From: Acrasis kona
Lineage: Eukaryota > Heterolobosea > Eutetramitea > Acrasida > Acrasidae
Direction: 5' to 3'
Length of the DNA stretch: 64,000 bases
Assembly (NCBI GenBank): GCA_026419775.2
Contig: JAOPGA020001602.1
Location: 62,001 to 126,000 of the forward strand
Shown: positions 3,866 through 64,000 of the stretch, one piece after another
How the letters are laid out: each line of letters starts with the position of its first letter
Position numbering within the stretch: the first letter of the stretch is position 1
The notes under the pieces: model-generated
Seen by the model: the letters and a program-made list of their open reading frames with translations, nothing else
What the model was told of the DNA's origin: nothing
The model's database searches: none
Position numbers and translations under genes: made by a program

Positions 3866-5533
3866 ATGCTTGATATAAACGCATTTCGTATAAATAAAGG
3901 TGGAAATCCTGATGCAATCAGATTATCACAGGGGAAAAGGTTTGAGATAAACACAAGCAATCTCATAATATTATTAGATTTGCTGATGTTACTTTAGTTG
4001 ATCAAGTAGTCGAACTAGACGAGCAGTGGAAGAATTGTATGAAACTCATGTAATCTACCACTAACACAGCAAGTGAGGTCAAGATTAGACACTCTAAACC
4101 TATATTCCAGAATAGTTAGCACTCATGTCGGGCAAAAGAAGAAAGCAAAGCAAGAGGAAGGAGATCCAACCCTGCCAATTCCTCAACATATAATCGATCA
4201 ATTCGACGAAGTGTTCAAAAAAGAAAATCAACAAGGCGCTTTGTCTCTTTTAAGTATATCTCAGCTTGTGAAATTATCAAAGTACGTCAAATCTGAAGCG
4301 GAAATGTGCGAGAAGAACTTGAAGGAAAAGATCACCGAAAGAGATTCAAAGTTACATTTAATCGGCAACATTGTGCATCCAAGTGTACCAATCAGGTAAA
4401 ATTTCACTTGTTTCACGTAACACTAAACACTACAAAAGTGACAATGAAGTAAACATTAATCATCATCAATCTAATGTTGCAGGACGATAATAGAATTATA
4501 CTCAAACACGGACAAGAAAAGAACGAACAAGGGTTGCTCAATCATCAACAAATCATGGAAAAACTTGGCGGAATTAAACAAGACCAAGGAATTAAAGTAT
4601 CAGGTGCCAGGGCCTACTTTTTATCAGGAGATTTGGTCCGCCTCAACGTAGCGCTACAATCATACGGGTTAGATTTCTTAACAAAGAGAGGTTACACTCC
4701 CACTTACACACCTTATTTTATGAATCAAGTATGTTTCTTTTTATAATCATCTCACACGCTGTCAGAGCATGATGGAGAAGGTCGCTCAATTAGAACAATT
4801 CGACGAAGAACTTTATAAAGTGACCGGAGATGGAGAGGACAAGTACTTGATCGCAACATCCGAACAACCCCTCGCTGCATTTTATTCTGATGAGTGGATC
4901 GACATCGAAACGTTACCTAATCGCATTGCTGGAGTTTCCACTTGTTTCAGAAAAGAAGCAGGTAAGCATGGGTCGGATACCGGCGGCATTTTCAGAGTAC
5001 ATCAGTTTGAGAAGATTGAACAGTTTGTAGTGACGAGCCCGTTCGGGAACGAGTCTTGGCATGAGATGGATTTGATGATTAATTGTAGTGAAGAATTTTA
5101 CAAGAGTTTAGACTTACCATTCCGAAGTGAGTTTTTTTGTTTTGAAAAATTTTGTAAAAATATAAAGTTGTAAGCATAGTGAGTGGAAAGTTGAACAATG
5201 CTGCATCTAAAAAATTAGATCTCGAGGCTTGGTTTCCTGCCAGTCAATCTTATAGAGAATTGGTTAGTTGTTCAAATTGCACAGATTATCAATCAAGGAG
5301 GTAATTATTTTTATTTTTTTTCTTTTGATTTTGTCGAAAGGATCGAGGCAAGATTCGGTAAAAGTAAAAACAGCGATGAGAAGATTTATGTGCACATGTT
5401 GAATTCTACATTATGTGCAACAACTAGAACAATGTGTTGTATTGTTGAGAATTACCAAACGAAGGATGGTGTTGTAATACCGACAGCGTTAAGACCCTAT
5501 ATGGGTGGACAAGAGTTAATGAAATTTCAATAA
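3866..5533 (+). CDS. SARS1: cytosolic seryl-tRNA synthetase
   Basis: Class II aminoacyl-tRNA synthetase that charges tRNA-Ser. The start at 3866 gives the eukaryotic opening [19 protein letters not shown], and splicing out 3940-3977 continues it with [17 protein letters not shown] second small intron follows (from 4037), then the tRNA-binding coiled coil (4080-4390). The catalytic core shows [31 protein letters not shown] (motif 2 region), [55 protein letters not shown] and the ATP-binding [18 protein letters not shown] near the C-terminus. Six introns of 30-65 nt interrupt it (last one ends GTCGAAAG). All expected motifs are present and the end at 5533 matches the usual family length. Confidence 0.93.
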
Positions 5534-7510: not shown

Positions 7511-10042
7511 ATGTCTATGTTTAAGAAGAATATCGACGACAAGGCAAAGATAATCGTAAGAATATTCCCTCTTTCACTTTAACAATGGCAAAAAAAAAGT
7601 CTAGACAGAGGAGAGCAGCAACTGTTCAAAAAGAAGCTCCTGAGAACCTTGAGGCACTTAGAACTGAGCTGAAGCTAGTTCCACCGAGCCCTGTCAGTCC
7701 GACACCAGGCAAAGGAGTGTCAGACTTACTAAACCAGTCGTTTTCAGATAAAGACAGGAACTTTTTTATTGAAAGAATGAAGGACCTTTCTACGAAATTG
7801 AAACAAGCGGAAAGTAATTTTTTCAATCAATTTACAAGTAATTGACATTGTGAAGGTAGAGTAGAGGAACTGCTCGGACAAGCTTCAAACAATGAGGGAA
7901 CCGAAGCTTTAGAGCAGGAACTAGCAGAGAAGGAAAAGATTGTAGAGCAGAGAACGAGTATGTCTTAATTACAACAAACTTTGTAACCAAACTTGTTAGA
8001 TGAGATAGCAACCCTCAAAAAACAAAGGGAGAAGCTAATAAAGAGCAGAGATGACTTGCACAACAAATTGGAATTATCCCAACAGCAACTTAAGGTATTT
8101 CTCTACCACTACTTTGATTTTTAATATTTTAATAGGAAAAAGAGGACGAAATAGAGACTTTGAACTTGCCCCGCGCCGACTCGGACGATGCGACAAAGAA
8201 CCTAATATCTGAGAACTTGAAGAAGGTTAAGGAGCTCAAGAGTACAAACAACAAACTTCAAGACGAAGTATTGAATTTGCAACAATACATTGAAAAGCAG
8301 TCTGAAAAGTTAACAAAGCTAGAGGAGGTATGTTGATACTACAAATAAACTCACAAACTATTGCAGGGCGATAAAGAAAATACTAACGAACTCGAAAATC
8401 TCCGTGCGTTGAATCAAAAACTAAACGAAGACATTCTTCTATTCTCCAAAACGAGAGAACATGCTTTAGATGAACATTCACAAGAAATTGATACTCTCAA
8501 GCTCGAACTCTCATCAATCAAGGTAGAGCGCGAAGGGTTGAACGAAGAATTGAATGAAGCTTCCCAACGCAACAAGGACCAAAAAACCAAACTATCCCAG
8601 CTAAGTAACGAACTACAAGCAACAAAAGATGCACTCAAGGAGGTCAAAAAGCAGCTCCAGAATAAATCATCAACATCAAGTGCGCCAAGCGGTCCTACAA
8701 ATAACGAGCAGGCAAAGACCGAAGCAATGCTAAGGAACATTATTCAAGAGCAAGAATCAAAAATCAAAGAACTAACAATTAACATTTCTGTTCGCCCAGA
8801 TAAGATCAAATCAGCTTCCTCGTCGCCCACCTCTCACATTTCTCCGTCTCTAGGTTCCGATCAACCCGACACTCCACAACATTCAAGTCAACTAATCAAA
8901 GAAGAAGAACTTCAAAATCTACATTTATCCATTGCCGAACAAAAATTAGTAAATCTGGGAGCTAAGCCAAGATAAGGAACGTTTACTGCAGGAACTTCAA
9001 GAAACAAAAGCCAGGATGGCGCTACGGAGATGAGGGAACTGCAGGAGCCGACAATGCGAGAATGTTACGTGCAGTCAATGACGCCTTAAAGTCACAAATC
9101 AGAGAGATCACCATATCAGGAGAACACCAAGCAAGACAAATTCAAGAGTTGAACAATAAAATTAGAACAATGAGAGAGTTTAATGAGGAGTTGAAGGGAC
9201 AAATCACTCACATGCGCCTAAAAATAAAAAATTCTAGTCCTCTTTCGTCCACATCTCCGACTCTAGACGTCTCGAAGAGGCCAATCATGTTAAAACCTAA
9301 TACTTCTCGTTCCTTGCACCGTAGACAACAAATCATGTTGGACCCGCTTGGTAGCGTGAAGAGATCCGTCCTGACTGTTATTGAGTACTTTGACGATAGG
9401 GTCGATGTTGGTTCTGATGTAACTATTGAGAGCATTGGTCGTGGCAAAGACCACCCTGGTTTGGTTTTGATTGTACAATCCAATTTGTGCAGTTCGTTAG
9501 CCGCTGTGTTCCAACACGGCTTTACTGGACCCTTCTGGTTGCTATCCAAACCTCATTATTGGGACATGATTTGTGAAATTGCAAACTCTTATGCAAATGT
9601 AGAGGATGAGACTTGCTGTCCTGCTGAGGATTTGTTTGCGATGCAATTAAAGAAATCAATTGCCAAGGTTAACCAAATAATCACAAAGGATTGTCGTGCA
9701 GAGATATCCTCCGCTCCAGCATCTGTTCAAGCTCTACTCCCCAAAGAAGACAATGAATTAAAATTCAGATGCTTGATTGTAACATTAATGAATGATAAGA
9801 TGCTTGGTGTTTTGTTCAAGTTCTTACTGAATGATAGACATCGTGAGTCGTTAAGAAGATTCTATGATGGGTGCGCATTGTTGAGACAAACGGAGTGTCA
9901 AAACAAACTCGTTACTTACCTTAGTTTGCTAGAGAAGCTTCCCTTTGACATTGAGAGAGATAGCGTGTACAAGATTTCTAGTTATGTAGATGTTACGGGA
10001 TCAAGTCCTGATGCGACAACTCCTGAGATAATTAGTCCTTAA
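7511..10042 (+). CDS. coiled-coil protein with C-terminal RUN domain (RUNDC1/golgin-like)
   Basis: Long coiled-coil protein: heptad-rich segments run from about 7640 to 9230, and a globular RUN domain ends it (about 9470-9990, with SSLAAVFQHGFTGPFW, FKFLLNDRHRESLRRFYDGC and LLEKLPFDI). RUN domains bind small GTPases of the Rab/Rap type in membrane traffic. Two starts are possible: MSMFKKNIDDKAKII at 7511 spliced over 7556-7609, or MAKKKSRQRR at 7585; both enter the same frame. The first resembles the MF-K-K opening of golgins. At least four short introns lie between 7845 and 8366. Near 8944-8960 and near 9025-9032 the frame shifts; skipping one base each time gives continuous coil (ELSQDKERLLQELQ, then DEGTAGADNARML). 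I treat these as probable insertion errors. No GRIP domain is present. Confidence 0.75.
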
Positions 10043-25300: not shown

Positions 25301-28300
25301 CTGGAAGTGGTTGCCAATGTAATGCGGGTTATTACGGCACCGACTGTTCTATTTGGACATGCAATCAAATAAAAATGAACTCTGATGATGTTTGCTCTGG
25401 AGTAGGTGTTTGTTCATCTTTTAATCGTTGTAATTGCTCGAGTCGTTATTATGGAAGTGATTGTGAATCTTTTAATTGTAATGGAATCATTAAAAATGAT
25501 AGTAGAGTTTGTTCCGGTGGGAACGGTACTTGTATCGCACCTGATACATGTAGTTGTGACTCTGGTTATTATGGTACTAATTGTGAGCTATGGAATTGTT
25601 TTGGTTACGCAAAATCAAACAGTTCAGTTTGCTCCAAAAATGGTACGTGCATTGCACCTGATACATGTAGTTGCAATACAGGTTATGTAGGATCTAGGTG
25701 TGAATCTTGGACATGTAACGGCACACTCAACACAAATCCCTCTGTCTGTTCAGGCAATGGAACATGTACTGCACCTAATACTTGTACTTGTTCAAATGGC
25801 TATATAGGAAGTCAATGTAGCAGATGGAATTGTTTTGGTAACCAATGCAGTGGTAATGGGTCTTGTTATGCACCGGATAAATGTTGGTGTAATCAAGGAT
25901 ATGAAGGTAGATCATGTGAAGCGTATCGCTGTGGTGGTATTATGTTTAATAGTACTCTTGTTTGCAGTACTAATGGAACTTGCATATCGCCTAGCAAATG
26001 TAATTGTAAGACTGGATTTGATGGTTCGAATTGTGAGGCATGGAGATGTTATGGTACATTATTCAACTCTACAAATGTTTGTAGTGGAAACGGAACATGT
26101 ACTGATGTCGACAAATGTGTTTGCAAACCAGGGTTCTATGGGCAGAGATGCGAAGCTTATAACTGTTATGGAACCATGTTTAATGCTACTAGTGTATGTT
26201 CTAGAAACGGAACTTGTACTGCGCCTGACACTTGTGCGTGTAAATCAGGATTCTACGGTCAGCGATGTGAATCTTTCAACTGTTATGGAACTATGTACAA
26301 CTCGTCGAAGGTATGTTCTGGTAATGGTACGTGTATTGGGCCTAGTCAATGCAAATGCAACAGTGGATTCTATGGTCAGCAATGTGATGGTTATAACTGT
26401 TACGGAGATATCTACAACTCGACATCTGCTTGTTCATCGGGAAATGGAACGTGTATAGGAGTGGATAATTGCTTGTGTGATACTGGGTATTTCGGTCAAA
26501 GATGCGAGGAATGGAGATGTTACAATACGTTGTACAATAATAGTGGGGTATGTAGTGGTAGGGGTGTTTGTATTAGTCCTAACACTTGTGCATGTAGCAG
26601 TGGGTTTATAGGAGCAAATTGCAATAGTACTACTCCCACACCAACTCCAACGCCTACTCCAACACGCACACCAACATCTACACCGACGCCTTCTCCCACA
26701 CCAACTCCTACTCCCACACCGACGCCTACACTGACACCTACTCCCACACCAACGCCTACACCTACGCCTACACGGACTCCTACTCCCACACCGACATCCA
26801 CTCTTCCTCAAACTCCTACACCTACTCTAACGCCAACACCTACACCAACTCAAACTCTCACACCTACACTAACGCCTACACCTACTCAAACTCCTACACC
26901 TACACCTACTCTAACACCTACACCAACTCAAACTCCTACATCTACACCCACACTTACCCTAACTCAAACTCCCACACCTACCCTAACACCAACACCCACA
27001 CCAACGCCTACACCGACTGTCACGTCAACTCCCACACCTACGCCTACACGCACTCCTACTCCCACACCGACATCCACTCTTTCTCAAACTCCCACACCTA
27101 CGTCTACACCCATTCAAACTCCCACACCATCATTCACTCTTCCTCAAACTCCTACACCTACTCTAACGCCAACACCTACACCAACTCAAACTCCTACATC
27201 AACACCCACACTTACTCTAACTCCCACACCTACTTTAGCACCAACACCTACTCTAACTCAAACTCCCACACCATCATTCACTCTTCCTCAAACTCCTACA
27301 TCTACACTAACGCCCACACCCACACCTACACTAACGCCCACACCCACACCTTCACCTACCCTAACTCAAACTCCTACATTAACGCATACACCGACTGCCA
27401 CATCAACTCCTATGCCTACGCCTGCACCCACTCAAACTCCCACACCGACATCCACTCTTCCTCAAACTCCTACACTCACTCAAACACCTACCTCAACTCA
27501 AACTCCGACACCTACTCCCAATTCTACACCGACTCTCACACCAACCACAACTCAGATTGCAACTACCACTCCTCTACCAACACTGACCCTCACATCCACA
27601 TCAACTCCTACACCAACACTAACACCAACACACACACCTTCGTCAACACCCGCTTCTACATCAACTCTTACGCTCACTCCTTCTCCAACTCTTACACCCA
27701 CACTTGCTCCTACCTCCACGCCTACCACAACACCATCAATATTCTCACCCACTCCAACACCTAACTCTGCACCCAATCTTACACCAACGCCAACACCTAC
27801 AACAATCCAAACGCCAACACCTACTCCTTCACCCGCATCTCCCACATCCACTTCTATAACAACAGAAACACATACTCCCACTCCCACACCAACACCAACT
27901 CCCTCCTCCACTTTTACCTCTGACCTCACTCCATCTCCTACACCTACTTCTACACCAATATCTACAGCCAATCCAACACCCACACCTACTCTAACTAGGA
28001 TTTTAACTTCAACATCAACACCTACATTAACTCTAATACCCTCTCCTACTGCCACATCAACTCCTACACCTACGCCTACACCCATTCAAACTCCCACACC
28101 GACATCCACTCTTTCTCAAACTCCTACACCCACTCCAACTCCCACACCCACACCTACCCTAACTCAAACTCCAACACCGACACCGTCATCCACACATACA
28201 TCAGCACCAATACTAACGCAGACCACTTCTCCAACACCCACTCCAGTGCCATATATTATAGGTTTCGTACAAAGCGGTGTTACAGTTATGTACTATTACG

Positions 28301-51656: not shown

Positions 51657-52019
51657 TTAAAAAGTTTTTATATATTTGAGGTTCGGCAAGTACCACTCAG
51701 TAATCCTAATCTCATCGTTACCCAACTTGAGTTTTAATCCAAGTTCGTCCTCGAAAATGCCCACAATCCTTGCGACGGCTCCATCCTTCAAATGTTTCTT
51801 TAAATCGTCCTGATTGACGTTTAAAATCCCTACACCGTCGTACTCTTGATCATCACGACGGGATAACCGTTTTAACTTCTATCCGAACGCTTCGGGGGCT
51901 CAATACTTACAATGAAAAATCAAGGTCTCCAACATATAATAATAAGCTCCAACAAGATAAGAACCACGAGGGGTGCGATTACTTTTGGAACAATTTTGTG
52001 TTGAGATGAGCGAAGCCAT
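51657..52019 (-). CDS. small unknown protein whose start region is self-complementary
   Basis: Unrecognised two-exon gene. Exon 1: MASLISTQNCSKSNRTPRGS, YLVGAYYYMLETL. Exon 2, after a 32-nt GTAAGT..GGATAG intron: KLKRLSRRDDQEYDGVGILN, VNQDDLKKHLKDGAVARIVG, IFEDELGLKLKLGNDEIRIT, EWYLPNLKYIKTF. The two exons are in phase only if one base of the run at 51914-51918 (T5 on the coding strand) is surplus. The start codon (52017-52019) lies in the 66-base loop of a perfect 34-bp inverted repeat whose one arm is coding (RTPRGSYLVGA). Confidence 0.5.
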
Positions 52020-52079
52020 CGCAACATAAAAGAAGTGAAAAAATCATCGCACCCCTCGTGGTTCTTATCTTGTTGGAGC
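51946..52079. repeat. perfect 34-bp inverted repeat with 66-base loop
   Basis: Arms 51946-51979 (begins GCTCCAACAA, ends GGTGCGAT) and 52046-52079 (reverse complement) match at every base. The left arm is coding sequence of the gene at 51657-52019; the right arm lies just upstream of its start codon. In a transcript covering both, the start codon would be in the hairpin loop. Confidence 0.92.
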
Positions 52080-52537
52080 GTATGAGCACGCATGTACTAA
52101 CCTTATTGTTTTATTTCTTCTATAAAAACTAATTTTTTATTATGTGATACATCAATTCGTTATGTGGTCAAGGAGAATGTTTAAATAAATGAAATGTTTT
52201 AAACCTGCCAGGGCAACGTTGGATCTTATACATAAACTGTGTCAATTTTCACAACAGAATGTCTTATATGATAAAGGAATTGCAGAAAAAAATAAATTTC
52301 TTCTCGCTCCATCTTCTGTTGTTTCTTCCGTCTAATTCCATATGCAGGCCAAGAGTTTAGTTTGCTACATTATAAATACTAATCTGGTGAACTGTTAGTT
52401 TGTCACGTATACAAAATGGAAATACAAGTATATACATGTGTCTGTATAATGTCATGTACATTGCCCTAAAAATCCTTAGTATACTCTCATCAACCTTCAT
52501 GGGCGCTCAGCTCAACACAACGTTGCTTCTTTTCGTT
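52080..52537. other. intergenic region between the small gene and the transposase-like gene
   Basis: AT-rich, no supported gene. It presumably holds the 5' region of the small minus gene and the 3' end, perhaps the terminus, of the transposon-like unit. I could not recognise a terminal inverted repeat by eye. A short plus-strand frame (52400-52645) overlaps the C-terminal coding of the transposase and is a shadow. Confidence 0.4.
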
Positions 52538-55500
52538 TCATGTGTTATTCTCGTTGTCAACCATAGAGCCATAACAATGAACTGCATTATACAAAACCTC
52601 CCTACGATACTCTGCAACATCAATGTCTTCCATAGAGTTGATTGATGGTCCACTCATTAATTTTTTTGTTATTGAGTATGCCCGAACACCACATTCTATC
52701 TCTATCTGCTTACATGTAGGTACTACATTGATTTGAATTTGTGGCTGAATATGAATTCCTAATAACCACAAACCCTGTAATAATTCTTTAGTGCACCTCT
52801 CAGCCTTCTGTGAGGACATAGCAGGAATTGAATCGTAATAGTTTAAAACAAGGGTGTTGTGGTCTAAATGAGCAGTAGAATAATGACCTGCACCTTCTTC
52901 TGTGTGATGAATATAGAGTACCCTACTTCTATTGTATAGTTGTCGTCTTAATTTATCTATTGCTATGTTGTGTCTTTGACAAACTAACTGATAGTCAATA
53001 GACGAAAACAAGAAGAAATTTGATTCTTTTTGGAATTTTAAAAATTCTTGTTCACAATAAGTTATAGCCAAATGTAGCAGTACACCATGCATAAGATTAT
53101 TTGGAAGAACTGATTTTATGATGTCGGCACCGGGATTAAAATATCTTTGTGTATGTGATCCATCTAACATTAAAAGAAAGTTGGGCTCCTCTCCCCTATG
53201 TACACACTGTTTTAAATGTTTATATAAGATTGTTTTGTTCATAATGAGAATATTACTCACTTGATCTGTTCTCTTTCTTTTATTTGATTTTGAAACAGTA
53301 TTATTTGAAACAGAAGGGGTGGTTATAATCTCGCACTCATGATCATTTGCAAGCTTGATTTCTTTCTCATTTTTATTCATAGTTTGATTGATAACATCTA
53401 TCTCATCAGAGTTATCAATACCATTTGTTAGATCTTCATCAGGCGCATTTAAATCCATTTTAGAAAAATTACATATCAGATCTTCATCAGCCAAAGACAG
53501 TGACAATGATGACTTTTTCTTTAACACAGGTCGAAGCAGTTCTTTTGTGTTTTCATTTTTGTAGTCTTGAATCATAAGAACCCTTTCAAGTACTTGTTGC
53601 ATAAAATCTGTCTTATTTGGTTGCCTTGAGTGGTTTGTGTGCGTTTTAATCATTCTTTTAATAGTGCTGTTTGTCATTTCAATTGATTGACAGCTAAATT
53701 GTCCTATTGATTTAAAAAAAATCAGGTCATCAACCATATGACTTGCAGCATGAAGGTATAGTGCCTTTGAATTTGTCAAAGTAGCATAGGCAGATATAAC
53801 GCTTGATGCACTTAGTCTACACCACTCCAGATCTTTATTTTCGACAACCATGTATGAGAAAAGTCGGATCAATCGGTACATATTATTTATAACACTCAAA
53901 TCCTGATCTGTTAGTCCAAGCCACATTTGTAAATCTTTATTATTTAAAATTAAATGAAAAACTGGGCGTATTTGAGAACCAATAACTGAGAATTTGAGAT
54001 TTTGCGTATCTCGTATTAATCTAATATTGATATGACAGCTTTTAAAAAGTGCTTCAATAGTTACCAAGATGTTATCCATCTCTTTAGTTTTTAATGCAAC
54101 ATCAGAGAGAAAAGGATCAGCCTGGAGTTTTACTTCGATTGACTGTAACATACTGATGGCAGCGTTTAATTTAGCACTGTCTTTTTTAGATTTTGTGATC
54201 TTGAGAATCAAATAGAGTTCCTTTCTTCTAACATCTGATGTTGTCTCGTTAATAACTTCATCCAGATACTGCTTTTGTTGTAGAAAATCTTTGGTTTCAT
54301 TAATTTTAGAACCTCTGCTAACAATAAACTTCAACAAGGACTTTAACATTGACAAACTGAAGTGAAGGGGATCAAAATGATATTTTAACGTAGAGAAGAA
54401 TTTGGATATAGGTAGATGGTTTTGGTAAGCTGCTGGTTTGTGCTTGTTCTCTAATAAAAACTTCTCCAACATAAAAGCAATTGTTCGAGGATGTCGTTCC
54501 TTGTTATCAAACAATTCTTTGCCTTTATGATCACAACGAATACACCAGTGCTTATCTTTATTAGAAGAGACACCTAGTGTCGCTTGAAGGAATTTCATAT
54601 CTCCGACAAAATGAGCATCCACAGCATAGAGTTGGCCATTAAGAATAAGTCCATTTTTTTCAAACTCCTCTAACTGCATCATTGCAGGTGACAAAAGTGC
54701 AGTAAGAAGACTATGATTAGATTCTTTACCCTCTCCAAGTGCCAGTACAAAGTTGTTTGTTGCTTTTGAAAAATATTCCTTTTTAAAGTTGCATATCTTC
54801 ATATAGATCCCTATAACATTGTTCTCTTTGCTATATTTAGTTTTTTGAAAACCATCCCCACCGATAATAATAGTTAATTTTGGTAAATTAGCTTTATAGC
54901 AGAATTGTAGGCCAGGTAAATTAACTTTCATCAGTTTGTCAATAGATTCTGTGCTGTTCCAAGAAGCTTGCAATATAGGCAGTTCAATTGAGGAATTTGA
55001 TTTGTTTGCTTCGAGATACATTTCTTGATTGAGATTTGGAAGGAGGGGGTATAAGTTTCTGTTATCATTTTTGAATGATAAGTAGTTCTCATAATTCCCA
55101 AGCAAACGCATTTTAGAAAAGAACTGGTACGCATTAACATGAACAAACACATTTTGGATTTTGTTTCTGAGTATCATTTTTTGCGACACTACTTTGAGAA
55201 TAAGTTCAGAAGGACGGAACAGTTTTGGCAAATGCCTTTGATAATTGGAGAAAAAATGTTTGAGCATTCCTTGAATGCCAGTTGATTTTACACAGTAAAC
55301 TATTGAATTAGGACAAGTGTCTACTTCTATTCTTTCATAAAACCAATGATCCTTAAGCATTGCTTTAGCTTTGAATGCAGATGTTTGGTAAACATTAGCC
55401 AAATGTGGAACAGGGATATGGTTAGGAATATTTGCTCGCAGTTTCCTATAAAGCTCTTCAAACACAACATTATCATGAGCATGCTTTGTAAGTTGTGCGC

Positions 55501-56593
55501 TTCGATACAAGTTTAATGACGCGTCGTCGATTGCATTGTTGACTTGGTTGACATACTCTTTTACAACCCTTGCATTCTCATCTTGTATAAAGCGTGATTT
55601 TCAAAACGCATCCCATACTCTCAAATGAACTGCTTCTTTATTTTTACACGACAGTAGTTTGACAATCATATCAACAAAATCTTGTTGGACAGCATCTCTA
55701 TTATGGCGAATTTTGAGAAGCTTGGAGATATCTGTGAATATGTCCGTAGGGGTATTTTTTGATATGCCACCTGCAGAACCAACTTTAGAAGAACATACTT
55801 TAGCAGACGCTACAAGGGTTTCTTTAGTCTTCCCTTTAGCTCTGTCTAGTCGAATATGATCTAATCCAATTTGAGTTAAATTGTCATCATTTGCAATAAA
55901 AATCAAGGTACACAGTTCGTGGTCGTTGAGTAACACTAGCTGTAATTTTGAAATTGGTTCAGAAGATGCCAAGAAGGAAGATAAACTTTCTGGCATATTG
56001 GTGCGTGCTTTAGAATAAAGTTTGATCAAAAAATCTCTAAATGTACTTCTTGGTATTTTTTTTGTTTTGTAATACTTGATAAGGTATAAAGTAGCATCAA
56101 TTGCATTGCTTTCTTTGAATACAAACCCACACTTTTCTAGTCTATTCTGAAGATTGGCACTATATCCACCCCCTTTTTGTTCTAATATTTCTTTTGACGA
56201 GAGTAGTAGTTCAAAAGGGTATGAGTGGCAAAGTTTTGTTGCTGTCTTTAGTTTGTAGTCACCAATCCATTGGACAGGCTTTTTTTTAACTTGCTTTGTT
56301 CTTCTAGTCTTATAAAAGTGGAGGCAGATGATCATGACTGTTGCCAAATAAGCATGATATAGCGGCAATATTGATTCAAATGATCTCAAAACTACCAGTA
56401 TTGGTGAGCGAATGTAGGTTCTGTATGACAGAACAGTTGGGATCATGCTGTAAATGTCGTTAATTGAGTAGTAGCCAAGAAATAGCAGTACTACAAAGAG
56501 TAACATGGCGTAATACACCACGTCAAATAGATATGCATAACATGCATCATGCAATCTACTGATTGCTTGCTTTCTCTGTCTGTACTTATACAT
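52538..56593 (-). CDS. transposase-like polyprotein with C-terminal Ulp1/C48 peptidase, one in-frame TGA
   Basis: A single frame runs from MYKYRQRKQAISRLHDACYA (56593) to 52538, about 1,350 codons, broken by one TGA at 55601-55603 (..LRVWDAF-stop-KSRFIQDEN..). The first 330 residues have two hydrophobic segments and unknown function. The centre (about 54900-54500) looks like an RNase H-fold transposase: LTIIIGGDGFQKTKYS, YAVDAHFVGDMKFLQATLGV, HWCIRCDHKGKELF, HFDPLHFSLSM, with candidate catalytic Asp in GGDG and VGDMK. The last 200 residues are a SUMO-protease-like C48 domain: VLYIHHTEEGAGHYSTAHLD, YYDSIPA and VPTCKQIEIECGVRAYS (His, Asp, Gln, Cys). This domain mix is known from large eukaryotic DNA transposons. 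Superfamily not certain. Confidence 0.62.
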
Positions 56594-56753
56594 GTTCAGG
56601 ATGTTGTTTTTTTAAAATAGAATAAACAGGATATTTCTTTTAAAATAGAATATTTTTAAAGGGTGTTTTGATTTATAAGAGTTATTCATAGAATTAAACA
56701 AAATACTTTATTTAAAGTTTGACAGATGTATCTCAGATCAGATCGATTAGTGG

Positions 56754-56963
56754 TGTTGTAATCGGGTAATACTATTAGGAATATATTACCGGTTACAGAA
56801 GAGAGACCAAGGAAATGACAATATAACAGGAAGGCCAGTTGTACAAAGATAGAAAGTGAGCCGAGTATAAAAGGACTCACTCTCTATGTGAATAAATAGT
56901 TAGAAATATATTGACAGCTTAACGAGTGTTACTTTACTCTAGTGTCTTTAGTATTTTACATCA
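56754..56963 (+). repeat. 5' LTR
   Basis: 210 bp, TG..CA ends, identical to the 3' LTR. Contains the promoter (TATAAAAGG at about 56857) and an AATAAA signal about 25 bases later. Confidence 0.95.
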
Positions 56964-57009
56964 TTTTTTAAGCTAGCCTTTCGTAAGCTTATTACGAGTA
57001 TATTCTACT

Positions 57010-58266
57010 ATGGATTCAGAAGAAATTGCGTTAAGGAAGGCTTTAAACGCCACAAAGAATACAAAGATCAGTGCGGTTCTCGCCAACAAGGTTGAAACAA
57101 CACCAAAACCATTGCGTAATTTAAAAAGGAAGGAAACTCCGGAAGCGAGGNTTTTATTCCCGAAGAAGAAAAAGGTCAACGATGACAACGAGAAATCAGA
57201 TGAAGACGTAGACGAAGATGACGAAGACGAAGACGGAGACGACTTAGACGAAGACGATGAAGNCGTAGACGAAAAAAGGGACAATAAAGAAGAGGGTGAT
57301 AAGGAAGACAGTGAAGACGATAAGAAAGACAAGAAACCCTCTAAAGACTCGGATACAGAACAAGTACCAAGAGAGTTGTTAGACAACTTCAAATTCTGGT
57401 CTCAATTTGTCGTAAACGATAAGAAAAATAAGAAAGCAATGGCGTTGGTTCAATTAGCCTCAACTCCGGAGGAGTTAGTTAAATTGGAAAATCGAATTGT
57501 GCTCATAGAAGAGCTAGTGAGCCAAGGGTATGACACGAAAGAGGCCAAAACACATGCAGCAGTTTCCATCTTGAAGATGAGAAAATTCCTAGAAGAAAAA
57601 AAGAACATTAAAGGCGAAAAGGAAAACACAAAGCTCGACAAAGAACGGCAAGACAGAGAGTACGTGGATTTCCGAAAGAGAGTTAAGACGTACGGGGATG
57701 TACCACAAATACGTAAGAGTACTGTAATTGATGACCTTGGAAGGTTTTAAAAGTACCTAACAACACACACCGTTCCCGAAAAGGATTACATTCCTTTGAT
57801 CATTGAGAATGTTCCGGCGAAGGCAGGAGGTGTTATCAAGACCGTGTTAACATCTGAAGAGTACAAAAACGCATCATGGACACGAATTAAGTCGTTACTT
57901 CCGATGCTGCTAACACACAAGGACAGCCGCCACTTCACTAGAGAATACACTGCTATGGAGATTAAGGTCAACGAAAAATATTCCGATTTTCACGATCGCT
58001 TCAGAAATCACGTATCAATTTTAGGAATATCAGAGGAGCATGCTTGCTCAGATTTTATTGATAAACTCCCGCACCATGTCAAAAGAGAAGCCAACAACCA
58101 TCAAGCTCTACACGCCAACTCAATCAAGCCATATGACCTTGACCGTTTAATGGAATACATTGAAATGCAATTCGATGAAAATGATGATCGATATTACATT
58201 ACAGAGAAAAGAAAAACAAACGAGAAGATCATGTACACAAACGAAATGATGGAAGGAGGGAATTGA
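57010..58266 (+). CDS. gag: retrotransposon gag (one in-frame TAA)
   Basis: Capsid-type protein. MDSEEIALRKALNATKNTKI opens a basic, then very acidic N-terminus (DEDVDEDDEDEDGDDLDEDD), followed by helical capsid-like sequence to 58266 (..YITEKRKTNEKIMYTNEMME). The frame carries one TAA at 57748-57750 (DDLGRF-stop-KYLTTHTVP) and is otherwise open; sequence on both sides is in the same frame, so it is a nonsense codon rather than an indel. Two N bases give undefined residues. The CCHC zinc knuckle is not in this frame but just downstream in the pol frame. Confidence 0.8.
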
Positions 58267-61200
58267 AGAGTGAAGAAAAGAAGCCAAGTAGCCGTGAAGT
58301 AAAATCGGAGCGGAAGAAGGAATTCAAGGAAGAATGGAAAAAAGATTTGAATCCCAATTGCTGGAATTGTGACATATTTGGCCATCAGCAACCAAAATGC
58401 AGAAACAAGGGCCCAAACACGGGATGGAACAAATTTAAATTTCTAAAAGATTCCAAGGACAAGAAGGAAGAATCTAATAAGAATAAAGATTCTCGATCTT
58501 ACACGCTGAGTTCTGTAAATTCCGTGCAGTCCAATACAGTAGAGGAACTACCAGGTAACGGTAACAAAGAATTAAATCTAGTGGAACGAACAATAAAATC
58601 CTTTGAATACCTCTTGAAAGAAAAAGAATTTCTTAGAGAGCAGATTCAGAAATCAATCTACAAGTTTATAGATTTGAGTCATCGGATTGATGCGGTACGT
58701 GAGGGGAATATTTCAGACATAAGAACAATCGAGTCCGAGTTAGTGAAGAATATGGAAAACTTACGCCTGAATCACGACGAACAGGTTGATAATCCAAAGC
58801 CAGACATTAGACCACTGCGCAGAACAAAGGCGTCAGTGCATGGGGTAGAAGTAAATGCCCTCATAGATACTGGTGCACAAAGTTCAACGATTACTAGAGT
58901 AGCGTTTGATAATCTACAGAGGAAATCGGCCTTAAAAGCCTATTTATCCGCACGGCATCACACCGTTAGGTTTGCTAATGGAACAACAGAGAAGTGTCGC
59001 ACCTCGAGATTCCAAGTGGACTGCTATGGTCTGTGCAAAGAAATTGTGTTTACAATAATAGAATCTGATGTGCAAGACGAAGTAATATTTGGCCTCGATA
59101 TCATCGAAGGAATGCAACTGTCATTACCAACTCTCACTGCTAGTCAGGTTCAAGAAAGAACCAAGCTCTTTAAAGTACGTACCATCGAAGAAATCATGGA
59201 GGATGAAAACAAGAACACTTATAAAGGCATTGAATTCCATCCAAATGCAGAGCAGCTCACCAAGTTGGTTGAAGAAAGAATAAAAGCAAATGAAGCTACA
59301 TTCAATCGAGTCAGCACAATCGGGGAAATAAAGATTGATTTTATTAATGAAGAAGACCGATTGAGAGGTCAGTGGTCACGGCAAATGCCAGTGCCAGCTG
59401 ACGTCGGAAATGATTTCTTGGCTCAAGTGAGACAGTGGGTAGCAGAAGGTATTTGTGAAGAACAATTAGACTTGTCAAAGTACCATACAGAAGAAGAGAA
59501 AGAAATCGGATTATTTAACACTAATTGCTTCCTAATCTATTCGGGAAAATGGCGGTTTGTTCATAATTTTGTTCCGATAAATAAGCTAATCAAGAGCGAC
59601 ACCAATGATGTACCGAGTATTGATCAGGTGTTCAAGGTAGTTAGTGAGTCAGGAGCATCAATTTTTAGTAAAATTGATCTACGATCAGCTTATTTACAAG
59701 TTCCTTTAAGAAAGAAAGATAGATCGATCACGGCCTTCACGTGCAGCAACAGAAGATATCGATTTATCACGGCGCCTCTGGGCCTTAAACATATCCCTTC
59801 AGCATTTCAACGAATGATCCGAGCACTATTACAAGAGATGGGATGTGCNGATTTCGCTTCAAATTTTATTGATGACATAATTGTATACAGTTCGACTATC
59901 GAGCAGCATATAGAACATGTAAAATTGGTGTTGGATGCTTTGACATCTGTCTTCTTAACGATTAGGAGGGAAAAATGCTTCTTCTTTGCCACTAAAGTTC
60001 CCCTTCTAGGTTATTGGCTAGAGACGGACGGCATCAGACCAAACCTACAACGNCTGTGTAACATGATGGATTGGGAAAGACCAAAGACGAAGAAACAAGT
60101 TCAACATTTCTGTGGAGTGGTGAACTTTTTCAGACGATTCATCCCAAATGCCTCTGACTTGGTGAAGCCGATATCTTCCATCGACACAAAAGGATCGTTT
60201 GACTGGTGGAGTAATCCGATTTGGGAAGAATGTTATAGAAAAATATATGATGCCTTAGTAACCAACGTGCCATTCCTTCAGTTTCCTGTTCCCAATGTAC
60301 CTTTAGAGTTGGAAACAGACGCGAGCAAGAGTGCAATAGGAGCGGTGCTCTTTCAGACAATAAATGGAGAGAGGCGATATATCAGTTTTCACTCAAGAGT
60401 GCTTTCATCAAGCGAACGTAATTATAGTATTCCAAGAAAAGAGTTACTATCGGTAATTGTACATACAAACTACTACCGATCGTATCTTTTAGGAAGATTT
60501 TTCAAGTTGCATACAGATGCTAAAGCACTAACGCATATCTTTGATGCAATCGAAGACCCAAACGGAAAAAACAGTGTCCTCGCAGGTTGGATGTCCTTAT
60601 TAGCAGATTTAAATTTTGAAGTACATCACGTTCCCGGTAAATTAAACACATTGGCAGATATTGCATCAAGAGTGCAAACGGTGAAAGTATATGAAGATGA
60701 TGATGAGGATGAAGATGATTCTGAGAGAGAAGAAGTAACCGAAGCTCAAATCGATAAAATTTTGTCAGAACTTCACAGCAGAGCACATTTTGGAGCTACA
60801 GCTATGTACCAACATGTACTGATGGAAGTACAACATCCCCCAGGGAATTTGTATAAGAAATGTCTTGATTACTGTCGGAAATGCCAGATTTGTCAACGCA
60901 CCACTCATTCAAGAATAGGTTATGCCCCAACAAAAGATCCAGGTTTATGTTTTGCAGGAGAGCACTTATCGGGTGATATAATGTATCTAAGCACTACAGA
61001 TAAAAACGGATACAAGTATCTACTGACATTAGTGGACAAGTTCTCAGGTTTTGTCTGGCTAAGACCCTGTTTAACTATGGAGGCTGATGAAATCGTACCT
61101 ATAATTCTTGAAATCTTCTTGACCTTCGGTTTTCCAAACACGTTAATGACTGACAATGCGAAACAGTTTTCTAATGATCTGTTAAAAAATGTTTTCGACG

Positions 61201-62099
61201 CTGCATTAGTTAAACATAATAAGACCATCGCTTATAATCATCACGCAAACGGACGAATTGAGCGGCAGCATCGCACCATCCGTTCAACATTAACAAAATT
61301 AATCGAAGAAACAAAATCAGAAGTGGACGATTGGAGCAAAGTTATTCCAGTAGTAATGTTCGCAATGAATTCTAGAGTTCATTCAACAACAATGAGTACC
61401 CCGTTCTCATTAATGTTTGGGCGCGGTCCTTTCTCGGTGGGTAAAGGTGTGGTGGAATCAGAAAAAGAACTTGAAGAACAGCAGGAATCACTGATACGGT
61501 TTTGGAAGACATTCAATAGGGAAGTACCGAAGTCAATCCATCACATCCAACTGACAAAAAGTAAAACCAGATCGGTAGCTCATAAGGTGAGTACGTACAA
61601 ATCTGGAGATCATGTGATGTGGAGGAATCCTCGAGCATCCACGAAACAAGGAAGAGCATACAGAGGCCCATTCCAAGTAATGCACGAAACGGAGATAGAA
61701 GGTCATTACCTCTTAAAAGGAAAGTACGAAAGATTTGTAACGGCATCAGAATTCTTGAAGAAAGTGGAATTAGGTGAAGGACAAGAACTTACGGATCGAC
61801 CTCATTTGTGGGATGACAATGTGTTTGAGACACAAGAAGAATTAGAAAAGCAAATGGATATCCAAGCTTCAGAAGTTGGGTATGATGATTTAAGCGACAG
61901 GAGTTACCATCCCGGAAATGAAGAGGACGAGGAATCTGATCAAGAAATAATCGAATCACCACTAAAAAAAGGAGCACGAAAAAAAAGAAACCGTATTGAG
62001 TCTCAAATTAACAACGAGAGTAAGGAAGAAGGTCGTGGGAACAACACGTTGACTCGAAAACGAAGAAGAATTGTAAGAAATACTGTAAATAAAGATTAA
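58263..62099 (+). CDS. pol: retrotransposon pol: zinc knuckle, protease, RT, RNase H, integrase
   Basis: 1,278 codons in the -1 frame relative to gag, overlapping its end. CWNCDIFGHQQPKC (CCHC knuckle, 58360) comes first. Then: aspartic protease with ALIDTGAQSSTI (58860); reverse transcriptase with FSKIDLRSAYLQVPL, GLKHIPSAFQRMI and FIDDIIVYSS (catalytic DD, 59862); RNase H with LELETDASKSAIGAVLF; integrase zinc finger HSRAHFG..CRKCQICQR and catalytic core (GDIMYLSTTD, LMTDNAKQFSN, HANGRIERQH); and a GPF-type C-terminal module (YRGPFQVMHE). All catalytic residues are present and there is no stop, so pol looks intact. The tail is acidic then basic (KKGARKKRNRIE). Confidence 0.93.
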   Translation: MKSEEKKPSSREVKSERKKEFKEEWKKDLNPNCWNCDIFGHQQPKCRNKGPNTGWNKFKFLKDSKDKKEESNKNKDSRSYTLSSVNSVQSNTVEELPGNGNKELNLVERTIKSFEYLLKEKEFLREQIQKSIYKFIDLSHRIDAVREGNISDIRTIESELVKNMENLRLNHDEQVDNPKPDIRPLRRTKASVHGVEVNALIDTGAQSSTITRVAFDNLQRKSALKAYLSARHHTVRFANGTTEKCRTSRFQVDCYGLCKEIVFTIIESDVQDEVIFGLDIIEGMQLSLPTLTASQVQERTKLFKVRTIEEIMEDENKNTYKGIEFHPNAEQLTKLVEERIKANEATFNRVSTIGEIKIDFINEEDRLRGQWSRQMPVPADVGNDFLAQVRQWVAEGICEEQLDLSKYHTEEEKEIGLFNTNCFLIYSGKWRFVHNFVPINKLIKSDTNDVPSIDQVFKVVSESGASIFSKIDLRSAYLQVPLRKKDRSITAFTCSNRRYRFITAPLGLKHIPSAFQRMIRALLQEMGCXDFASNFIDDIIVYSSTIEQHIEHVKLVLDALTSVFLTIRREKCFFFATKVPLLGYWLETDGIRPNLQXLCNMMDWERPKTKKQVQHFCGVVNFFRRFIPNASDLVKPISSIDTKGSFDWWSNPIWEECYRKIYDALVTNVPFLQFPVPNVPLELETDASKSAIGAVLFQTINGERRYISFHSRVLSSSERNYSIPRKELLSVIVHTNYYRSYLLGRFFKLHTDAKALTHIFDAIEDPNGKNSVLAGWMSLLADLNFEVHHVPGKLNTLADIASRVQTVKVYEDDDEDEDDSEREEVTEAQIDKILSELHSRAHFGATAMYQHVLMEVQHPPGNLYKKCLDYCRKCQICQRTTHSRIGYAPTKDPGLCFAGEHLSGDIMYLSTTDKNGYKYLLTLVDKFSGFVWLRPCLTMEADEIVPIILEIFLTFGFPNTLMTDNAKQFSNDLLKNVFDAALVKHNKTIAYNHHANGRIERQHRTIRSTLTKLIEETKSEVDDWSKVIPVVMFAMNSRVHSTTMSTPFSLMFGRGPFSVGKGVVESEKELEEQQESLIRFWKTFNREVPKSIHHIQLTKSKTRSVAHKVSTYKSGDHVMWRNPRASTKQGRAYRGPFQVMHETEIEGHYLLKGKYERFVTASEFLKKVELGEGQELTDRPHLWDDNVFETQEELEKQMDIQASEVGYDDLSDRSYHPGNEEDEESDQEIIESPLKKGARKKRNRIESQINNESKEEGRGNNTLTRKRRRIVRNTVNKD

Positions 62100-62130
62100 A
62101 AGCACAGATGATAGTGCATGATGTTATCAT

Positions 62131-62290
62131 CCGGTGACAACCGAAGTTGGTGAGCGAATGCAATATACAACATATGTGAATTATGCTAGCATGTTAATGC
62201 GTTATGCAACCCAGTTGGTAGGGGTTACCAGCCGGTGGCGACCGAAGTTGTTGAGCCAAAAGGCAACACACAACATACGTAGTAACAGTA
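62131..62290 (+). repeat. imperfect 101-nt-period duplication between pol and 3' LTR
   Basis: CCGGTGACAACCGAAGTTGG (62131) recurs as CCGGTGGCGACCGAAGTTG (62232), and downstream stretches ACAACATATGTGAATTA and ACAACATACGTAGTAA also match. Lies in the non-coding part before the polypurine tract (GGCAGGAG) of the retrotransposon. Confidence 0.7.
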
Positions 62291-62433
62291 CTGATCACAC
62301 TGTTACACCCAATCACACTGATAACAACTATAATTAACTTTCTTTAGAGATTGAGAATTCCAATGTATAGAGACTCAGTATTAGTAAGGGTCTAGAGTTG
62401 AAATGTCAAAGACATTCATTTTCATGGCAGGAG

Positions 62434-62643
62434 TGTTGTAATCGGGTAATACTATTAGGAATATATTACCGGTTACAGAAGAGAGACCAAGGAAATGACA
62501 ATATAACAGGAAGGCCAGTTGTACAAAGATAGAAAGTGAGCCGAGTATAAAAGGACTCACTCTCTATGTGAATAAATAGTTAGAAATATATTGACAGCTT
62601 AACGAGTGTTACTTTACTCTAGTGTCTTTAGTATTTTACATCA
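62434..62643 (+). repeat. 3' LTR
   Basis: 210 bp, identical by eye to the 5' LTR; preceded by a short purine tract GGCAGGAG and followed by the AGTGG duplication. Confidence 0.95.
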
Positions 62644-62966
62644 AGTGGTAACTATATTAGCGCATTGCAATGAGATATATAGACAATTCATTTACTGTTT
62701 ACAACAAATGCAGGAGCGTATGACCATTGTGTTTCTGAGCAATTCAAGGGATTATTTCACTTGAATAATACACTCATCAACAATTATTTCAAGCCAGTGA
62801 AAGTAATATTTATTTTAATTGATATTTACATAGACTGTGCACTACTCCTGAGAGGTCAAGCAATGTGTAATTCAAGGTATGGTGTTGTGAAAAATTGGCG
62901 TCAATGCCTATCTGAAGCGAGTATAGTTTATCTAGAAAAGAGACTTAAGTAGAGGAGGACGCGTAG
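62644..62966 (+). other. flank of the retrotransposon insertion with possible broken coding sequence
   Basis: Joining the empty site (56726-56753 to 62649 on) gives a plus-strand frame MYLRSDRLVVTILAHCNEIY, RQFIYCLQQMQER.. up to 62760. Further partial frames follow (AYDHCVSEQFKGLFHLNN; CALLLRGQAMCNSRYGVVKN). I cannot build one continuous model. It may be a decayed plus-strand gene of the host or of the surrounding DNA transposon that the LTR element hit. Confidence 0.25.
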
Positions 62967-63167
62967 CAGGAGAAAGTGGTGTGGTTACTTCCATTCTTAT
63001 CTCATGATGGAAAGGATACGTCTTCAATGGATGAAAACTGTTGGGTTGCTGTTGCTGAGAGGTATGCAGGAGACTTAAGGGTGTTTGCAGAAAATAATGT
63101 GGGCAGTATTTGGGCTTTATTGGCGGAGTTTGGAAAATTTGACACCAATAATGGTGTTGTTGAATAA
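62967..63167 (+). CDS. possible 3' exon of an unknown plus-strand gene
   Basis: After a TAG acceptor at 62966 the frame reads QEKVVWLLPFLSHDGKDTSS, MDENCWVAVAERYAGDLRVF, AENNVGSIWALLAEFGKFDT, NNGVVE-stop. Composition is protein-like and better than the minus strand here. The upstream exon is unclear. It converges with the dioxygenase gene, whose stop lies 12 bases away. No homologue recognised. Confidence 0.3.
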   Translation, partial: QEKVVWLLPFLSHDGKDTSSMDENCWVAVAERYAGDLRVFAENNVGSIWALLAEFGKFDTNNGVVE

Positions 63168-63178
63168 ATGTTGAAGGG

Positions 63179-64000
63179 CTATTGTGTGTAATCATCATCG
63201 TCTTCATCTTTGTCGTCATCATCATCGTCTTCGTCATCGTCTTCTTCCTCATAATCGCCTTCGTCCTCATCCTCTTCTGCATCCTCATTCTCGTCACTAG
63301 ATTCGCATAAAAACTCTAGGTCCTTATTTGTGTTGTTGAGATGCCTCATTTTCCGTTCAGCTTTCTCATCTTGTATATCTTTATTTTTCTTCATCAACTT
63401 TGGTGATATGTACGACTTCTCTTTGCTTTTTTTATAAAGATCATGGCTACAATGGACAACTCCAAAACGGTAACCAGCATATGGTGAAACAAAATGTTGC
63501 ACTGCTTCTGAACTAAACATCAAGGTGCATCCTGGTCTATGTGGAAATTTTATTCCTAGCTCTGGAAAGCATACAAGAGCTCCCGCAAAGTATCCAAAAG
63601 ATGAAAGTGCAGAAAGAGATCTTTTCATGTCAGTAAAGTCTCTATGGTTGGCACACTGTCCAGTATTGATAGCACATCCCAAAAACACTTCTTCAATGCA
63701 GGACTGTAGAATACTCTTAAACTCTGGACTACTTCCTGCAACAACCTGACGGCAGTCTTCATACACTTGTTTGTCAGCAGCTTTCATCAAAGAGCTAAGA
63801 TCTCTTCTGTGTGTGAAGAATGCTTTCTTAATGTTGGTGACACTAGGCAAGGCAGTGACTTTTCCTTTAGCAATAGATTGTCTACTAACTACTCGCGTCA
63901 ATGGATTTCCAATTGGCGACCACTCAAAAAAGTGATAAACATCAATCTCTTCGCAATTTCGATATCGATCATCACACTTTGTAAATGGTTGGGGGAACAT
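63179..64000 (-). CDS. 2OG-Fe(II) dioxygenase of TET/JBP type, possibly truncated at window edge
   Basis: 273 codons visible; the first codon ATG is exactly at the window edge, so the true start may lie outside. The dioxygenase core is clear: iron ligands in ANHRDFTD (HxD) and the distal His in VQHFVSPY, with the 2OG-binding Arg in YRFGVVHCSH. Between them come LSSFGYFAGALVCFPELGI and FPHRPGCTLMFSS, the double-stranded beta-helix strands. The closest pattern I know is the TET/JBP-like group that oxidises 5-methylpyrimidines and is often carried by eukaryotic DNA transposons. The C-terminal 60 residues are extremely acidic (DEDEGDYEEEDDDED). Same strand as the transposase-like gene, 6.6 kb away, 0.7 kb without the retrotransposon. 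Confidence 0.65.
   Translation of the reverse strand: MFPQPFTKCDDRYRNCEEIDVYHFFEWSPIGNPLTRVVSRQSIAKGKVTALPSVTNIKKAFFTHRRDLSSLMKAADKQVYEDCRQVVAGSSPEFKSILQSCIEEVFLGCAINTGQCANHRDFTDMKRSLSALSSFGYFAGALVCFPELGIKFPHRPGCTLMFSSEAVQHFVSPYAGYRFGVVHCSHDLYKKSKEKSYISPKLMKKNKDIQDEKAERKMRHLNNTNKDLEFLCESSDENEDAEEDEDEGDYEEEDDDEDDDDDDKDEDDDDYTQ

Follow-up and report, generated by a model that had tools for sequence, protein, structure and literature searches.

The 64,000-nucleotide stretch analysed here (hereafter the window) covers positions 62001-126000 of contig C834 of the heterolobosean soil amoeba Acrasis kona, whose genome was surveyed as 37.35 Mb in 1,021 contigs. A DNA transposon bounded by terminal inverted repeats (TIRs) spans 51854-65799 in window numbering, its final 1,799 bp lying beyond the window end. 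Its three genes share a strand: gene 1 comes first, followed by a TET/JBP-like dioxygenase and then by a transposase whose C-terminal domain is Ulp1/C48-like (Table 1). The element measures 13,946 bp including a nested Ty3 long terminal repeat (LTR) retrotransposon of 5,890 bp, and about 8.05 kb without it.

An initial annotation had placed a minus-strand dioxygenase gene with an HxD..H..R core about 0.7 kb upstream of a minus-strand transposase polyprotein, leaving aside a nested Ty3 element of about 5.9 kb, and had assigned both genes to one element from their proximity, strand and type. Both genes are present on the minus strand, the transposase frame continuing past a TGA and the dioxygenase being represented by the 3′ part of its gene. 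The Ty3 has the size given; once it is removed, about 0.69 kb separates the dioxygenase stop from the first ATG of the transposase. The element encloses both genes as proposed but is longer than had been supposed, with the third gene at its 5′ end.

The 5′ terminal repeat at the 65799 end is CACGACGGGATAACCGCCTTAACTTCT, and its inverted partner at 51854 is CACGACGGGATAACCGTTTTAACTTCT; they are 27 bp long and identical at 25 of 27 bases. The termini read CACGA..TCGTG and are thus of the CA..TG type. With up to two mismatches allowed, a 16-base core of the TIR occurs at 69 places in the genome, compared with 4 for a reversed control. A subterminal palindrome (51942-52083) was considered as the end of the element and rejected, the terminal repeat lying farther out; the element may not need it, and it could be a fold-back repeat nested there.

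A second copy, on contig C857, is 98-99% identical to the window copy and lacks the Ty3. Its alignment follows window positions 56281-56754, jumps to 62644, continues through the dioxygenase and stops at 65800. The two copies thus have this terminal repeat as a common end, beyond which their flanks differ. Matches to both genes were found on seven contigs (C834, C857, C504, C491, C807, C215 and C421), the first five of which share gene order and strand. C834 and C504 carry gene 1, dioxygenase and transposase, C857 carries gene 1, dioxygenase and the start of the transposase, and C491 and C807 carry dioxygenase then transposase, with no gene 1 match on either contig. C504 and C491 represent a second recently spread pair, in which the DNA of both genes is 94-97% identical. 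Taken together, the TIRs, a near-identical copy that runs out at the terminal repeat, and order and strand conserved on five of seven contigs confirm that one element carries both genes, as the initial annotation had proposed. That annotation had called for a genome search for further copies and common TIRs, and had set down beforehand that the lack of a second copy with both genes, or single-copy host genes as neighbours of an AlkB- or prolyl-hydroxylase-type dioxygenase, would speak against one element. Second copies with both genes exist, and the dioxygenase is itself multi-copy, with 74 genome places matched by the window domain (E ≤ 0.001) and 56 by the Pfam profile (19 above cut-off), partly the same places.

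The chance juxtaposition of a host dioxygenase gene and an unrelated transposon would account for the low Pfam score of the dioxygenase, and for the 15 of 21 transposase-matching contigs without a dioxygenase match and the majority of dioxygenase contigs without a transposase match, many of them short or fragmentary. Against it stand the termini common to the copies, the duplication of both genes together in each of two subfamilies and the fixed order on five contigs. We rejected it, as its probability is negligible given a C857 copy with the same terminal repeat and an order kept on C834, C857, C504, C491 and C807.

Relative to C857, the window dioxygenase lacks about 370 bp and for this reason is probably non-functional. 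With the stop in the transposase and a piece gone from gene 1, the window copy as a whole is probably dead. The Ty3 insertion is very recent, because its LTRs are identical and the site is uninterrupted in C857; a 5-bp duplication, AGTGG, flanks it (junctions read by eye).

Table 1 Coordinates of the transposon features and of the nested Ty3 element (window numbering)
Feature	Position	Strand	Basis or remark
3′ TIR, CACGACGGGATAACCGTTTTAACTTCT	51854-51880	+	25/27 bases identical to 5′ end
Subterminal palindrome, two 67-nt arms, 8-nt spacer	51942-52083		19 genome matches, some beside dioxygenase/transposase genes
Transposase, C-terminal 1,020 residues (DDE core and C48-like domain)	52541-55600	-	Open frame; motifs conserved in divergent copies
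Ulp1/C48-like peptidase region	52541-53290	-	Codons H 52883-52885, D 52832-52834, C 52691-52693
Putative catalytic E codon, SCQSIEM, E641	53678-53680	-	Alignment and motif count
H(3)H motif HAASH, H617/H621, 24 residues ahead of E	53738-53752	-	Alignment and motif count
C(2)C motif CIRC, C353/C356, 19 residues past D2	54533-54544	-	Alignment and motif count
Putative catalytic D2 codon, GDMK, D334	54599-54601	-	Alignment and motif count
Putative catalytic D1 codon, GGDGF, D249	54854-54856	-	Alignment and motif count
In-frame TGA splitting transposase	55601-55603	-	Aligned C504 copy open across position
Transposase, N-terminal part, two membrane-helix-like hydrophobic segments	55604-56593	-	Same frame as 52541-55600; 59% identical in C504
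Nested Ty3 LTR retrotransposon, 5,890 bp, foreign to element	56754-62643	+	Pfam RVT, RNase H, rve; empty site in C857
Ty3 LTRs	56754-56963, 62434-62643	+	211-bp direct match, 100%
TET/JBP-like dioxygenase, 3′ part	63182-64000	-	Gene runs past window end; Tet_JBP E 4.1e-4, under cut-off
Dioxygenase residue codons	H 63644-63646, D 63638-63640, H 63494-63496, R 63467-63469	-	Family alignment

The transposase and its insertion sites

The transposase is about 1,350 residues long in full and has matches at 41 places on 21 contigs. It carries the signature of the CACTA/Transib/RAG1 clade (CMCT), D..D..C(2)C..H(3-4)H..E. All five motifs are also found in order in C60 and C509, and part of them in C193, C147 and C504, as far as the frames extend. 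In RAG1 the corresponding spacings are D708-C727 and H937/H942-E962, which those of the Acrasis transposase resemble. C(2)C and H(3-4)H motifs between D2 and E are common to CMCT lineages and RAG1 (PMC12730594). From these motifs we infer a DDE enzyme of the CMCT type. The ratio of nonsynonymous to synonymous substitution rates (dN/dS) between the window and C504 transposases is 0.19 (372 codons) and 0.22 (172 codons), with dS within 1.3-1.6, as expected under purifying selection.

Profile and database searches placed the protein in no known family. Pfam gave no credible family, and no transposase family up to E 1 for the window protein or E 5 for four relatives. No relatives were found among 5.8 billion proteins, of which only word-sharing candidates were covered, with either the single protein (E ≤ 0.001) or an eight-row alignment (E ≤ 0.01). 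The sole Protein Data Bank (PDB) match of the transposase profile up to E 10 was SENP8 (E 0.43), over the C48-like region.

C48/Ulp1 peptidases use a catalytic H, D and Q..C. The transposase C-terminus has candidate counterparts in H906, D923 and C970 with a preceding Q, within GHYS, YDSI and QIEIECG in the window, and within GHFF, YDSI and QGLNECG in C60. The residues expected of the C48/SUMO-protease domain in the initial annotation are thus present; the C-terminus has no Pfam C48 match, and its match to SENP8 is marginal. As a side observation, the start of the transposase has membrane-helix-like hydropathy (19-residue means of 2.38 and 1.71), which is odd for a transposase. Among the available frames, C504 has three such segments (1.97, 1.65 and 1.62), C60 one (2.12), and C147 and C193 none.

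Nine TIR pairs were inspected for target site duplication (C73, C333, C947, C623, C470, C480, C795, C995 and the window copy). None has flanking direct repeats of at least 3 bp, and eight of the nine have none of at least 2 bp; the window copy is flanked by AT on both sides. Empty sites, in which no base was gained or lost, were found for four short derivatives with the same ends. Two are clean, with 139 of 140 bases identical over the junction both when C480 is compared with C793 and when C795 is compared with C176. The other two are less clean. For C73 against C754, 16 bases to the left and 11 to the right of the junction are identical, with indels beyond, and C149 and C55 differ in the three left-flank bases nearest the junction. 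For C947 against C835, the left flank and 6 right-hand bases are unbroken until an insertion of C835's own, after which the right flank resumes. The four sites read AATAT^CAAAT, AAAG^ATTTG, GTCAT^ACTGG and GTAAT^CTTAT. C333 against C500, with a 10-bp gap three bases off the junction, is only consistent with zero duplication, and no bridging site was found for C623, C470, C995 or C834. CMCT elements are reported to leave target duplications of 2 to 5 bp (PMC12730594), an expectation not borne out at the derivatives with empty sites, where the duplication is 0 bp.

These data also bear on whether the element is a divergent Kyakuja-Dileera-Zisupton (KDZ) transposon, the group that the initial annotation had offered as a precedent. 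Pfam, which we take to include a KDZ model, returned no transposase profile for the window protein or its four relatives, the 8-bp target duplication shown for Zisupton is absent, and the motif order met is that of CMCT. A TET/JBP gene is carried, and a length of about 1,350 residues would suit a KDZ transposase, since these can surpass 1,300 (PMC12477816). We nevertheless consider KDZ membership very improbable and rejected it for want of a profile match and an 8-bp duplication.

The TET/JBP-like dioxygenase and gene 1

The TET/JBP identity given by the initial annotation draws its support from the family rather than from the window copy alone, which scores below the Pfam cut-off. Six of seven family members match Tet_JBP at E ≤ 0.01 (best E 7.9e-7, 28.9 bits). 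The window dioxygenase matches C379 (E 9.3e-14) and C340 (E 1.5e-12), and overlapping stretches there score 66 and 60 bits against Tet_JBP; since the same places are matched, the window domain is tied to that Pfam family. The HxD..H..R core, whose residues we take to bind iron and 2-oxoglutarate, reads NHRD, QHF and GYR in the window. HRD is present in all seven alignment rows, and the H and R are kept in four of the five distinct sequences that reach them. Among the 7,987 candidates scored in a protein search with a capped list, the dioxygenase had two matches, both of them A. kona proteins. Viral contigs gave no dioxygenase match, and a PDB search with the dioxygenase alignment gave none up to E 10.

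Between C857 and C329 the dioxygenase has a dN/dS of 0.13 (467 codons), with dS within 1.3-1.6. Of the ten dioxygenase pairs, eight gave no dS (saturated) and a ninth had a dS of 3.2; the window/C857 value of 0.72 rests on very few changes. Rows for the N-terminal part of the transposase and for gene 1 were excluded as out of frame. The ratios of 0.13 for the dioxygenase and of 0.19 and 0.22 for the transposase indicate that selection acts on both.

A dioxygenase tree of 23 of 30 loci (matches of at least 140 residues, with one place, C641, entered twice) splits at 100/100 into a C834, C857 and C329 type and a C504, C491, C807 and C168 type. Both types hold the same position in the element. 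The dioxygenases of C834 and C329 are 86% identical and those of C834 and C504 30-37%, whereas the transposases of C834 and C504 are 59-63% identical. Gene 1 groups the opposite way, with 36% identity between C834 and C329 and about 70% between C834 and C504. This opposite grouping at one element position suggests that the dioxygenase may have been swapped between elements; unequal rates could also account for it, and in C329 gene 1 and the dioxygenase may belong to separate elements. Gene 1 itself gave an FH2 match (E 0.0024) that is under cut-off and was taken as chance, and gene 1 of C504 has no match.

It is unlikely, in our view, that the dioxygenase is a passenger gene that moves with the element and has no role in transposition or in escape from silencing. 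The presence of two such types at one place in elements with more similar transposases (C834 and C504) speaks for a passenger, as does the loss of the core R in C504. Set against this are the low dN/dS between C857 and C329, the core retained in four of five distinct sequences, and the constant place and strand on five contigs.

Dioxygenase duplicates that are 97-99% identical over 2.5 to 3.5 kb (C168/C38/C53 and C347/C197/C1003) were also observed. Because the transposase described here has no match on the contigs concerned, other carriers of TET/JBP-like genes probably exist.

CpG mutation and the proposed role of the dioxygenase

The C5-methyltransferase family (PF00145), for which a DNA or an RNA substrate is possible, has ten matched stretches on six contigs, all above cut-off. 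Two of these genes, at C143:4110-5575 and C486:22063-23528, have equal 442-residue frames and almost equal scores, and for these reasons probably represent a recent duplication. The observed/expected CpG ratio is 0.56 in the transposase part of the element and in C504, and 0.90 in the Ty3. Among close copies of the window type, transitions affect 35 of 282 CpG sites and 83 of 2546 other G/C sites, a ratio of 3.8, with a GpC control of 0.89; the other dioxygenase loci give a ratio of 3.6 (control 0.75). The pooled count omits three of the 12 pairs (C804/C491, C168/C53 and C38/C53) to avoid double counting, and C834 enters three pairs, which are therefore non-independent. The pattern is what CpG methylation followed by deamination would leave; with two control pairs for comparison, it may or may not be peculiar to the element. 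An anti-silencing role for the dioxygenase would fit this excess of CpG transitions in element copies together with the C5-methyltransferase-family genes in the genome.

The same observations bear on the base that is oxidised. Heterolobosea are related to Euglenozoa, and this relationship counts for a dioxygenase that acts on thymine as kinetoplastid JBP does, leaving a base J-like mark on the element DNA rather than removing 5-methylcytosine. The TET/JBP family does include thymine hydroxylases (PMC12730594). With the substrate read from sequence alone, the CpG-specific mutation excess and the C5-methyltransferase-family genes favour 5-methylcytosine as the mark, and we regard thymine oxidation as unlikely.

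We consider it likely that the element is a CMCT-type TIR transposon that counters host CpG methylation through its dioxygenase and whose transposase acts on SUMO-type tags by way of its Ulp1-like domain. In this model, the DDE transposase would bind the terminal repeats and join them to a target whose two strands are cut without the customary stagger. The host would methylate CpG in the element, leading to silencing, and the dioxygenase would oxidise the methylated base within the element itself, allowing the element's genes to be expressed and its ends to be used. The Ulp1-like domain may process the transposase, or it may strip SUMO or a similar tag, either from the transposase or from proteins that the host uses in silencing.

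Several observations weigh against this model. Among the copies examined, both terminal repeats and all genes occur together only in the window copy, whose transposase and dioxygenase are both broken. The C857 copy ends with its contig after about 104 residues of transposase, on C504 a 3′ repeat lies at 9297 but no 5′ repeat was found (the contig starts with Ns), and C215 and C421, two of the seven contigs with both genes, carry the two matches on opposite strands. The empty sites stem from short derivatives, and the window copy's flanks share AT and were not found joined at any place. The window dioxygenase scores 20.1 bits against Tet_JBP (PF12851), below the cut-off of 34.9, and that of C504 has GFH for GYR, with H replacing the expected 2-oxoglutarate-binding R. 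AlphaFold gave no usable fold for the dioxygenase (three sequences) or the transposase (one sequence), with a predicted local distance difference test score of 35 in each case. As for CpG, clear depletion is confined to the transposase part and C504, the observed/expected ratios of the dioxygenase part (0.69) and of C857 (0.72) being close to that of window positions 1-50000 (0.75). Moreover, the C341/C373 repeat pair shows no excess of CpG transitions (0.9), and two non-dioxygenase repeat pairs pooled give 1.5, which is not significant and rests on few changes.

On a broader level, we tentatively put forward a new superfamily-level lineage, so far seen in Acrasis only, as a possible classification. 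It would combine a RAG1/CACTA-like DDE transposase, having a membrane-helix-like start and a SUMO-protease-like end, with insertion without target duplication and a replaceable TET/JBP cassette that strips host CpG methylation.

Elsewhere in the window, a repeat array at 26630-28195 is ACTCCTACACCC-like, with periods that are multiples of 6, 12 among them, and a strong GC skew of -0.53 (26001-28000); a 117-bp tandem repeat at 26087-26319 adjoins it. On C857, a long frame from position 4068 onwards, a few hundred bases from the element copy, resembles a GH31 glycosidase (a candidate found by eye).

Comparison with known transposons

TET/JBP genes were reportedly linked to KDZ transposons by Iyer et al. 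in 2014. Detailed descriptions of DNA transposons carrying TET/JBP genes exist for fungi (Kojima 2025, PMC12730594), and Zisupton and Kyakuja elements have been reported from Chlamydomonas (PMC8226300). The main text of the A. kona genome paper, in its available part, makes no mention of TET, JBP, methylation or dioxygenase (PMC11589745), and no report of such an Acrasis element was found in a literature search outside which most subscription journals lay.

Members of the CMCT/RAG1 group share with the Acrasis element the C(2)C and H(3-4)H motifs between D2 and E and the CA..TG ends. They differ from it in their reported 2 to 5 bp duplications, as against 0 bp at the Acrasis derivatives, and the Acrasis element has no profile match to known members and carries a third gene. 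Given these reported lengths for the clade, zero-length duplication beside CMCT motifs bears on DNA joining by RAG1-like enzymes. Cut-and-paste insertion without target duplication is described for Spy, of the PHIS superfamily (PMC4482050). Unlike Spy, however, the Acrasis element shows no AAATTT preference at its four empty sites, and its transposase has CMCT motifs. In plants, some CACTA-type elements contain a ULP1-like region, and among their proteins are ones that combine Tnp2 and ULP1 domains; these offer a parallel to the C-terminal domain (PMC2528002), whereas the Acrasis element has no Tnp2-type Pfam match, carries a dioxygenase in addition and resides in an unrelated host.

The TET-carrying fungal transposons are alike in having terminal repeats and a TET/JBP gene beside the transposase, which in some hAT7 families lies upstream in the same orientation; exchange of the dioxygenase between fungal transposons has also been reported (PMC12730594). 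The Acrasis element differs in its heterolobosean host, a transposase without a profile or database match in the searches described above, and the absence of target duplication at the derivatives. A. kona also offers a test of anti-silencing, having C5-methyltransferase-family proteins, a CpG mutation pattern and two dioxygenase types in similar elements. If this is a separate heterolobosean case with an unrelated-looking transposase, it would suggest that transposons have more than once responded to host silencing by capturing a demethylating enzyme. A DNA transposon that carries a TET gene is of a kind known from fungi, and the Acrasis lineage is a new one, in a protist.

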